From contig NC_092572.1 of NCBI RefSeq assembly GCF_037975245.1, forward strand, positions 13,265,269 to 13,329,268: DNA of 64,000 nt, in the 5' to 3' direction. The DNA comes from Apostichopus japonicus. Lineage: Eukaryota; Echinodermata; Holothuroidea; Aspidochirotida; Stichopodidae. The translations under genes and the position numbers were made by a program. The notes below the pieces were generated by a model, which saw only the letters and a list, made by a program, of their open reading frames with translations, was not told the origin of the DNA and searched no databases. This document shows, piece after piece, positions 28,793 to 38,917 of the stretch (position 1 is its first letter; every line of letters starts with the position of its first letter).

Positions 28793-29542
28793 CTTTAAAT
28801 CCGGAGTCTAAGCAGGTCTCACGCAGGTTGTCCGATATTGGGAGAGGGTCCGGTAGAGTACATTTTAAGAATCTGGAGAACAAAATGTGAAGAATACTTC
28901 TTGAAATACAATAACACAAATAGAGAAGGTTGAAATAAATTCAATACAGTTAATGTTAGCGATATCTTCAAGGAGAAGATTCGGTGACCTCGAACTTGAT
29001 ACCCAAACATGAAATATGTCTTGTCAAAAAAATGAAGCCTGGAAGATACACAACTCCTTGACTACTATTGATTACAATTTAGCTTCATCGATCTCCAAAC
29101 CTCTGTTGATTTGAAGCTGATATATGTTCTGAAAATGATGACATTTTCAGGGGGTCGCCCTTGACCCCCGCCATGGGCCCTATGATGGGCCCTGGATCCC
29201 ATGCCGACCTGACTCCGCGTACCACGCTTGCAGCTCCCGCGCCTGCATTACTCTTCTCATGTTTCTCCAAACTGTTGCTCAAAGTTTGCTGCGTCTCGAC
29301 TTCCAATTGTCTGACGACGCCACTGATATTGCTGGTATTGACGAGTAAACAAGAAAATGTGGGATTTCTTACCTCAATGTTTCTATTGAATTGTCTTTAG
29401 TTGCCTTCTCTATAAGGTTTACGGTAGAATCAGTGTCAATGGCCATGTCCCGCAATGTCAGTTGTTTCATAGTAGGAAGGGTAATTTCTTTTACAAAAGT
29501 ACCCAGTACAGGCCCAGTCAAACACAAAGTGTTTAATGTTAT
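28793..29542 (-). CDS. Gene B exons 8-9: LRR-like segment
   Basis: Exons 29373-29542 (170 nt, phase 0-2) and 28793-28872 (80 nt, phase 2-1). They encode [28 protein letters not shown] and, across the junction, [16 protein letters not shown]. The leucine spacing fits ribonuclease-inhibitor-type LRRs, usual after NACHT. Splice phases match the NACHT exon exactly. Two or three repeats are visible and more may lie in unidentified exons. The intervening 29085-29306 frame is not part of the coding sequence. Confidence 0.62.
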
Positions 29543-38500: not shown

Positions 38501-38917
38501 CTGTTCAATGTCTGTTAAAATTATCTCTTTCGAGATCCGGATTTAGGAATCACAAGTGATTGCGAGTTGATAAACATCATGTTTGATCTCTAGAGTAAGG
38601 TAAAATATGTCTCCAAGCAGAATTGGCATTCTTTGATACAGGTGGCAATTGTCTACGACCTTCCTTACCGATTTCGAACCTATGGACATACAATGAGCAT
38701 CGATAGCACAGTTGGTTAGGGTGTCCGCATTGAACAATTGAGGCCCGGGTTCGACTCCCGTTGGAGGCAGGGAGCGTTTTCACTGTTTTGGGTTTCCCAA
38801 CTCACTTCAATTCCTATAATATGTTATAGCGAATTCTCTTAGACAAACATTTACATACTTACCCGTACTACAAGGTGAGGAGACCATAACAAGCACAAGA
38901 ATCTTCAAAACTTCCAT
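28793..38917 (-). CDS. Gene B: Ig-Ig-TM receptor with cytoplasmic NACHT-LRR (3' end not found)
   Basis: Predicted membrane-anchored NLR-like receptor, at least 887 residues. Exons: 38863-38917, 37960-38268, 37158-37475, 36230-36385, 35163-35188, 34839-34869, 32745-34261, 29373-29542, 28793-28872, all GT-AG and in one continuous frame. Domains: signal peptide (1-18), V-like Ig (19-121), C2-like Ig (122-227), TM (about 248-270), linker (271-298), NACHT-like NTPase with helical region (299-804), LRR-like repeats (805-887). The extracellular exons are phase 1-1 like those of genes A and C, and exon 3 has the length of gene A exon 3. Walker A is kept (GNGKTT). Walker B is degenerate (VMYGLEAI where NLRs have ILDGLDE). 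The last exon leaves in phase 1, so more exons must follow; I could not identify them. Confidence 0.8.
30748..30760. promoter_or_regulatory. DR1 nuclear-receptor-like half-site pair
   Basis: tgacctttgacct is a perfect direct repeat of AGGTCA with one-base spacing (read on the minus strand). A similar site is at about 45034. It is intronic in gene B; function unknown and chance is possible. Confidence 0.35.
31644..31900. repeat. Repeated palindromic X-box-like motifs
   Basis: gttgctatggcaac (31644), gttgtcatagcaac (31801) and attgccatggttac (31887) are near-palindromes resembling the RFX X-box (GTTNCCATGGNAAC). The sequence around them is also loosely repeated (ccgttg...actaccga / ccgttg...aaccaccc). 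They lie in intron 7 of gene B next to the transposon relic. Confidence 0.5.
32155..32640 (-). pseudogene. Relic of an uncharacterised mobile-element protein
   Basis: The minus strand encodes [19 protein letters not shown] and, after a frameshift near 32465, [18 protein letters not shown] then [18 protein letters not shown]. The pair LTGCD..S.F.GKGK and LPP....L..HI.RA is a signature I know from repetitive, transposon-associated proteins of many invertebrates. The frameshift makes it non-functional. It lies in intron 7 of gene B and is not part of that protein. Confidence 0.65.
32745..34261 (-). CDS. Gene B exon 7: NACHT-like NTPase domain
   Basis: A single 1517-nt exon (phase 1-0; acceptor TTTGTTATTAG, donor AAG|GTGAGC). 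P-loop [17 protein letters not shown] at about residues 372-388. [11 protein letters not shown] is the strand after it. VMYGLEAI (about 444-451) is at Walker B, with Asp and Glu lost. [11 protein letters not shown] replaces the sensor-1 [14 protein letters not shown] and [15 protein letters not shown] (about 684-698) match NLR winged-helix/helical regions. It is clearly NACHT/STAND family. ATP may be bound but hydrolysis is doubtful. Confidence 0.85.
34839..35188 (-). CDS. Gene B exons 5-6: micro-exons joining TM to NACHT
   Basis: Exon 35163-35188 (26 nt, phase 1-0, NTHDRLPT) and exon 34839-34869 (31 nt, phase 0-1, [10 protein letters not shown]). Neither alone would keep the frame between the TM exon (ends phase 1) and the NACHT exon (starts phase 1), but together they do. 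Both have good donors and acceptors. A long TA tract separates them. Confidence 0.75.
34932..35075. repeat. (AAAT)n/(TA)n microsatellite
   Basis: AAAT units pass into more than 120 bases of TA, between two micro-exons of gene B. Confidence 0.95.
36230..36385 (-). CDS. Gene B exon 4: stalk and transmembrane helix
   Basis: A 156-nt exon, phase 1-1. A charged stalk ([16 protein letters not shown]) leads to the hydrophobic run [20 protein letters not shown], then the basic VKRRCQ. Acceptor TTCTATTCCAG, donor GTAAGT. Confidence 0.87.
36740..37130 (-). repeat. Tandem array of Ig exon 3' end plus splice donor
   Basis: The last 70 or so bases of gene B exon 3, its donor and the start of its intron recur about three to four times downstream. 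Each copy has the block for GTCACTGA...GTGGAAGG and a TTTGGTAAGTGG-type donor (donors at about 37157, 37033, 37007 and 36887, with a weaker one near 36757). The copies are frameshifted and lack clear acceptors, so they look like decaying duplications rather than extra exons. Confidence 0.82.
37158..37475 (-). CDS. Gene B exon 3: C2-like Ig domain
   Basis: A 318-nt exon, phase 1-1, after a strong acceptor (TTTTTTTTTCAG). It encodes [16 protein letters not shown] and [11 protein letters not shown], with extra Cys residues near the N-terminus ([13 protein letters not shown]) that could pair among themselves. Its 3' end and donor are repeated in tandem downstream (36740-37130). Confidence 0.83.
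37960..38268 (-). CDS. Gene B exon 2: V-like Ig domain lacking the second Cys
   Basis: A 309-nt exon, phase 1-1. It has [17 protein letters not shown] and the strand D-E region [16 protein letters not shown], followed by [10 protein letters not shown]. That last motif corresponds to D-x-G-x-Y-x-C, but the Cys is gone, so the canonical Ig disulfide cannot form. Donor CGA|GTAAGT. Confidence 0.82.
38525..38810 (+). mobile_element. tRNA-derived SINE, third copy
   Basis: Same body as the pair at 16.6-17.2 kb (gagatccggatttaggaatc, tgatctctagagtaaggt, acgaccttccttaccg). The tRNA-like head has cagttggttagggtgtccgc (A box) and gggttcgactcccg (B box). It lies in intron 1 of gene B. Confidence 0.85.
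38863..38917 (-). CDS. Gene B exon 1: signal peptide
   Basis: ATG at 38917, [18 protein letters not shown], donor CGG|GTAAGTATG, phase 1. A classical short signal peptide. The SINE copy at 38525-38810 lies in the following intron. Confidence 0.82.

Follow-up and report, generated by a model that had tools for sequence, protein, structure and literature searches.

The window analysed here, a 64,000-nt stretch of the genome of the sea cucumber Apostichopus japonicus (C12:13265269-13329268, where C12 is NC_092572.1), carries on its minus strand what is shown by its exons to be a single gene model. The predicted product is a type I membrane protein in which a signal peptide, two immunoglobulin (Ig)-like domains and a transmembrane (TM) helix are followed, after a short linker, by a NACHT domain with further helical domains, as in NOD-like receptors (NLRs), and by a short leucine-rich repeat (LRR)-like end. 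Exons 1-7 (Table 1) have GT donors throughout, AG acceptors from exon 2 onwards and compatible phases, and when joined they yield 804 codons without a stop, identical to 804 residues of the NCBI protein P0001, a predicted A. japonicus model of 840 aa named "uncharacterized protein isoform X2". Since P0001 carries the same residues, the exon join is independent of an earlier note on this DNA, which had proposed the same domain order and the splice sites and phases that connect the Ig-TM part through two micro-exons to NACHT. Both proposals hold, and the order recurs across a gene family described below. The two exons that follow, 8 and 9, have AG/GT borders and keep the phase, for a total of 887 codons without a stop. 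The exons within the range 28793-38917 given in the earlier note stand, but 28793 is probably not the end of the gene, which would extend further to 26637 or 25580, the sites of two candidate last exons. The NCBI isoform omits exons 8 and 9 and takes its terminal exon from inside another element, within the intron that follows exon 7, where a second, unrelated and mobile-element-like open frame is located (32152-32615, minus strand); a 115-residue frame in this element had no match in Pfam.

Pfam recognises the NACHT domain of exon 7 with 27.7 bits against a cut-off of 26.7. A profile built from 13 family members matched human CD2 over the first Ig domain (E 0.003) and NLRC4 over NACHT (E 1.4e-4); the profile proved necessary, since the NACHT exon by itself reached NLRC4 among PDB sequences only at E 0.043, and two unrelated rows appeared at 0.21. 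Exon 3 scored 16.1 bits as C1-set, under the cut-off of 21, and a V-set domain is precomputed for the paralogue P0013. Ig domains, identified via the family profile and the form of their exons, are thus found in one protein with a TM helix and NACHT, in this order. The protein contains a single strong TM helix (Kyte-Doolittle hydropathy, KD, 3.44), immediately followed by KRRCQR. The structure model of the paralogue P0002, aligned to NLRC4 and NLRP3 with VIA-align 2, has an NLR-type fold over residues 210-812 and ends in strand-helix repeats aligning into what are taken as the first LRRs of both proteins. Pfam found no LRR match in P0002 or P0003, the paralogues carrying the short LRR-like part.

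Table 1. Exons of the Ig-TM-NACHT gene and nucleotide-site motifs in exon 7 (window positions)
Feature	Position	Strand	Basis or remark
Exon 1: start codon and signal peptide	38863-38917	-	GT donor, phase 1; equals P0001 residues 1-19
Exon 2: first Ig-like domain (V-like)	37960-38268	-	AG/GT borders, phase 1-1
Exon 3: second Ig-like domain (C-like)	37158-37475	-	AG/GT, compatible phase
Exon 4: stalk, TM helix (about 36249-36317), basic stop-transfer	36230-36385	-	156 nt, phase 1-1
Exon 5: micro-exon, 26 nt	35163-35188	-	joined frame, match to P0001
Exon 6: micro-exon, 31 nt	34839-34869	-	joined frame, match to P0001
Exon 7: NACHT and subsequent helical domains	32745-34261	-	Pfam NACHT; match to P0001
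Exon 8: LRR-like	29373-29542	-	in phase; 64-66% to paralogues P0003/P0002
Exon 9: LRR-like	28793-28872	-	in phase; 67% to P0002, 48% to P0003
Candidate last exon a (tail ends DQLVLNFRTGKWN; protein 910 aa)	26637-26707	-	91% to P0003 tail
Candidate last exon b (tail ends GKRCNRL; protein 914 aa)	25580-25662	-	100% to P0002 tail
Alternative last exon, NCBI isoform X2 (840 aa)	32241-32351	-	amid sequence resembling a mobile element
Walker A: ELGNGKTT, Ala directly before it where Gly expected, GKT present	34020-34043	-	exon 7
Degenerate Walker B: VMYGLEA instead of LLDGLDE	33807-33827	-	exon 7

A family of Ig-TM-NACHT genes

We searched the genome (671.6 Mb, 35 contigs) for relatives. P0001 matched 58 places, counted as 29 NACHT-type loci, of which seven are found on C12 at 13.23-13.59 Mb, seven at 18.15-18.32 Mb and 13 at 7.55-8.14 Mb; one more is on C21, and a doubtful one is on C7 (27% identity, two stops). 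For 19 of the 28 loci other than the window gene, 10-kb stretches were examined (two for the C21 gene). In 16 of these 19 genes both Ig exons lie upstream of NACHT with the same orientation; in two only the second was found and in one none, so that 18 have at least one. Of 17 stretches tested for a strong TM helix with a basic flank between the second Ig exon and NACHT, 16 have one; the remaining stretch, at locus L026, is masked by Ns in this interval, and the protein P0005 of the same locus has a TM helix. At a strength of 2.9, reached by all 16, the TM rule was satisfied by 4 of 200 control pieces of the window, its own genes included, the controls being 3.3 kb long and some family stretches longer, up to 6.9 kb. 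The database models P0001, P0002, P0003 and P0005 all join Ig and NACHT, and the model of the C21 paralogue, P0003, is devoid of the TM exon that is present in the C21 DNA. We found no Death domain in the three C12 regions (13.2-13.6, 18.1-18.4 and 7.5-8.2 Mb) among the 150 genome matches listed (150 of 204 candidates scored), and by this listing the window gene does not have the domain that marks the death-domain NLRs of echinoderms.

Possible traces of further duplication were observed within the window. The intron behind exon 3 contains repeated fragments similar to the end of that exon (36770-37118, minus strand), and a lone fragment between the NACHT gene and a kinase-like gene (19636-19800, minus strand), which over 60 columns shares 50% identity with part of the second Ig exon, is perhaps a relic of another copy. 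P0002, which comes from another assembly (BSL78_15789), shares 79% identity with the window protein, and its tail is 100% identical to window positions 25583-25663. The search of the present genome with P0001 returned only the window copy and one 59% copy, which may reflect presence/absence variation or a very divergent haplotype.

Relation to AjNLRC4 and other published receptors

In textbooks, animal NLRs figure as sensors of the cytosol. Vertebrate NLRC4 and NLRP3, unlike the window protein, are cytosolic, start with CARD or PYD, have no Ig domains or TM helix and keep their ATPase motifs intact. The earlier note knew of no described receptor class with the present domain order, a claim refuted by two published A. 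japonicus proteins, AjNLRC4 and AjNLR-new. According to the available parts of PMC8699970 (PLoS Pathog 2021), AjNLRC4 consists of an Ig-like domain (31-132), an Ig domain (251-353), a TM helix (483-503) and NACHT (600-757), and is present at the coelomocyte membrane, where it binds microbes through its Ig part, dimerises and drives actin-based phagocytosis; the available parts of PMC11932488 add that the Ig part recruits caspase-1, with lytic cell death. AjNLR-new (PIK48001.1, 1197 aa; PMC13133943, JBC 2026), which we compared by its description, also has Ig, TM and NACHT. In the available text of PMC8913654, Ig V-set NLRs of the holothuroid Chiridota heheva are only counted, among six NLRs with other domains; they resemble the window gene in coming from a sea cucumber and having an Ig domain, and the text describes no TM helix or domain order. 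No Ig-TM-NACHT protein is described in the available parts of PMC9646362 and PMC6208332.

As published, AjNLRC4 (MN607598) shares with the window gene its arrangement, with Ig-like and Ig domains outside, a TM helix and NACHT inside, and even the spacing from TM end to NACHT is similar (97 residues, from 503 to 600, and about 100 in the window protein). It differs in its location on C16, its canonical Walker A, Walker B and sensor 1, its larger ectodomain of 482 aa and the reported lack of LRRs; the window gene combines two Ig exons with a degenerate ATPase site and ends in a short LRR-like part. The C16 location is given by the reverse primer for the AjNLRC4 ectodomain, which matches C16:4499117-4499141 with one mismatch; this locus encodes both quantitative PCR primer peptides (KANLEEQ and VDGDFR) and the published LRTD site, and a canonical NACHT is found 2.3 kb beyond. 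A second TM of AjNLRC4 was published at 776-795 (PMC8699970, in its available part). In relatives of the window gene, NACHT is followed at about the corresponding place by a stretch of mild hydrophobicity (KD 1.7-2.0). In NLR folds this stretch is probably a soluble helix, and therefore the second membrane pass of AjNLRC4 is doubtful.

A tree was built from 20 NACHT sequences (467 columns, LG+G4). It separated the window lineage, with 11 sequences, from the other nine with a support of 100; several supports within the AjNLRC4 side were low (42-59). The NACHT of AjNLRC4 is 43-50% identical to those of four other A. japonicus genes and only 20% identical to that of the window gene, which, with its NACHT in a separate clade and on another chromosome, does not belong to the AjNLRC4 lineage. 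Judged by its sequence, the window gene is thus a member of a second Ig-TM-NACHT lineage beside that of AjNLRC4, in which its own subclade has lost the ATPase signature. A NACHT from a Death-rich part of C12 (28.48 Mb) was placed on the AjNLRC4 side of the tree (support 99).

The AjNLRC4 Ig exon had 136 matches in the genome (150 candidates scored), none of them in the window-family clusters. Among 106 NACHT matches listed, which include no window-family place, an Ig exon like that of AjNLRC4 lies upstream, on the same strand, within 8 kb in 33 and within 15 kb in 38; none has it downstream or on the other strand. The family of the published AjNLRC4 therefore comprises at least 33-38 NACHT genes, each preceded by a similar Ig exon (on C16 and at 24.7-25.3 Mb of C12), and, given some 29 loci of the window lineage, both lineages are multigene families as far as genomic sequence can tell. 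This view of the genome suggests that surface Ig-NLRs are not isolated curiosities and instead make up two large families of genes. Upstream domains were checked at only two further NACHT genes, in 5 kb each: at C16 14.83 Mb there are AjNLRC4-like Ig frames and no TM helix by the hydropathy rule, and at C7 3.91 Mb inspection by eye showed no clear frame for Ig, TM or Death.

ATPase site, selection and possible function

The nucleotide site was compared in 31 sequences (14 proteins and 17 genome frames), the frames being selected by GK[ST], which left out loci L023 and L025. GK[ST] is accordingly present in all 31, and the first Gly of Walker A is missing in 30, the exception being the crinoid P0006. 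The first Asp of Walker B is kept in 26; the five without it read YGLE and comprise P0001-P0004 as well as the C21 copy, which is the gene encoding P0003. The same five have lost the sensor-1 Arg, which is replaced by Ser or Asn (Ser in the window gene). With Walker A, Walker B and sensor 1 considered together, the window gene does not retain an intact nucleotide site. Single weakened residues occur in other branches as well; it is the combined loss that marks the window subclade.

Between the window gene and the C21 copy, the NACHT exon differs at 348 of 1503 nt (23%, 501 codons) without a stop in either, while simulated drift starting from the window copy produced a mean of 15.5 stops and no stop-free run in 2000, by which the open frame of the window gene is shown to have been kept against drift, as far as substitution patterns tell. 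The ratio of nonsynonymous to synonymous divergence (dN/dS) for this pair is 0.80 (NG86) or 1.16 (YN00); it is 0.43-0.59 in four other pairs (L026 with L021, L022, L027 and L018) and 0.21 between the window gene and L016 (NG86, with dS saturated at 2.7). Given the high ratio and the lack of stops, the NACHT exon appears as one that is evolving fast and yet stays coding. The Ig exons of the window and C21 genes are far more alike (84% and 92% protein identity; dS about 0.05, as opposed to 0.25-0.33 in the NACHT exon), which suggests gene conversion or recombination in the 5' part.

We lean towards an explanation in which the gene encodes a surface Ig-TM receptor with an ATPase-poor NLR module serving as a ligand-gated scaffold or regulatory partner. 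At the surface of coelomocytes, the Ig pair would bind a microbial ligand, or the Ig domain of another receptor, and cluster; the NLR module inside would relay the signal by clustering and partner recruitment, as was published for AjNLRC4 (actin-dependent phagocytosis; caspase-1), with bacterial uptake or cell-death signalling as the outcome expected by analogy. The window member, presumably lacking a hydrolysis cycle, could serve as a scaffold; alternatively it could regulate paralogues whose site is intact, as their partner or decoy. The extracellular sensor coupled to NLR signalling that the earlier note envisaged is plausible in light of AjNLRC4, with the qualification that the window NACHT is without key ATPase residues. 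The pseudo-ATPase role itself is more tentative and falls somewhat short of an even chance. A little less probable still, and offered as a possibility, is the joint view that Ig-TM-NACHT receptors arose twice in sea cucumbers, rather than once with later losses, from two NACHT stocks and two Ig ectodomains, that they make up a large part of the NLR repertoire of A. japonicus, and that a branch within the second lineage became a surface pseudo-ATPase scaffold, decoy or regulator. Intact and lost ATPase sites would in any case represent natural variants for asking whether a surface NLR needs ATP hydrolysis.

Several observations weigh against this interpretation. All Ig matches are under the Pfam cut-offs, the best being Ig_3 in exon 2 with 18 of the 30 bits required, and the structure model of P0002 has a predicted local distance difference test (pLDDT) score below 50 in its Ig part. 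Topology differs between publications, and the authors of PMC13133943, in its available part, place the NACHT of AjNLR-new outside the cell and the Ig inside. The presence of GKT leaves nucleotide binding or slow hydrolysis possible; P0012, L019, L027 and L034 are likewise without the sensor-1 Arg, P0014 and L017 read DGLKNQ, and L023 and L025 read GHGKAT, yet have Walker B and sensor 1 intact. Of the 29 places, 7 carry stops within their NACHT match (six on C12, plus C7), and the elevated dN/dS of the window-C21 pair also fits loosened constraint.

Among the alternatives, the one that fares best, though rather unlikely in our estimate, is a normal ATP-driven receptor working like AjNLRC4, in which Ig binds Vibrio, the receptor dimerises and is taken up, and NACHT binds actin, the motif changes being immaterial. 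It draws on the common species and domain order, on the function described in the available parts of PMC8699970 and PMC11932488 and on the GKT of Walker A, but the window NACHT is in another clade at 20% identity, the 136 AjNLRC4 Ig exon matches avoid the window-family clusters, and the Walker B and sensor-1 residues of AjNLRC4 are absent. We regard as improbable that the gene is a decaying copy whose ATPase motifs were lost as selection ceased. Such decay would agree with the motif loss, the dN/dS near 1 against the C21 copy, the stops at family places and the intronic element that supplies the last exon of the NCBI isoform; it is contradicted by the NACHT exon, open in both copies despite the stops expected, by the identical Tyr in the Walker B of P0002, P0003 and P0004 and by the similarity of the Ig exons to those on C21.

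Even less probable is a mainly soluble product. The length and phase of exon 4 would permit in-frame skipping to give a secreted Ig-Ig-NACHT protein, as the C21 model without its TM exon might suggest, and an in-frame ATG in exon 7 before the P-loop (P0001 residue 316, near 34211), nearly invariant in 13 relatives, would permit a NACHT-only form; however, P0001 of the window gene includes the TM exon, and the helix recurs in 16 of 17 stretches of relatives. That an Ig receptor and an adjoining NLR gene were misjoined across a gap is very unlikely, in spite of the same ATG and the shortness of the micro-exons, since both Ig exons precede NACHT in 16 of 19 paralogues, four database models join them and the reading frame is continuous through the micro-exons.

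Neighbouring genes and other NACHT loci

The Ig-TM-NACHT gene is flanked by two genes, at 4168-15973 (minus strand) and 53502-62512 (plus strand), both of which look Ig-Ig-TM-tyrosine-kinase-like, with exons read by eye and unspliced. Their joined kinase pieces matched PK_Tyr_Ser-Thr at E 1.1e-29 and 9e-15. The minus-strand neighbour may be a pseudokinase, judging from HPALRLN and DIC at positions where kinases have HRDLAARN and DFG. A common origin of the Ig-TM part in the receptor and the kinase-like genes was considered and rejected, as comparing their ectodomain profiles yielded nothing significant (probability 0.2%, with thin profiles of 4 and 2 sequences). A tRNA candidate at 16793-16858 had a single borderline match in Rfam (29.9 bits, gathering threshold 29) and was not detected by ARAGORN.

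Elsewhere on C12, at 27.6-34.2 Mb and three other places, a Death exon was found 11-29 kb downstream on the same strand at 36 of 37 NACHT places, chosen from 45 C12 matches listed, and upstream within 30 kb at none of the same 37. Perhaps these are NLRs with a Death domain behind NACHT, or perhaps a constant neighbour gene is present. In echinoderm NLRs the Death domain is N-terminal, the opposite of this arrangement, and a literature search returned no paper uniting "C-terminal death domain", NACHT and sea urchin. Finally, the NACHT-LRR protein P0006 of the crinoid Anneissia japonica exhibits by eye a hydrophobic helix before NACHT and another at the end of the NACHT protein, and is perhaps membrane-bound too.

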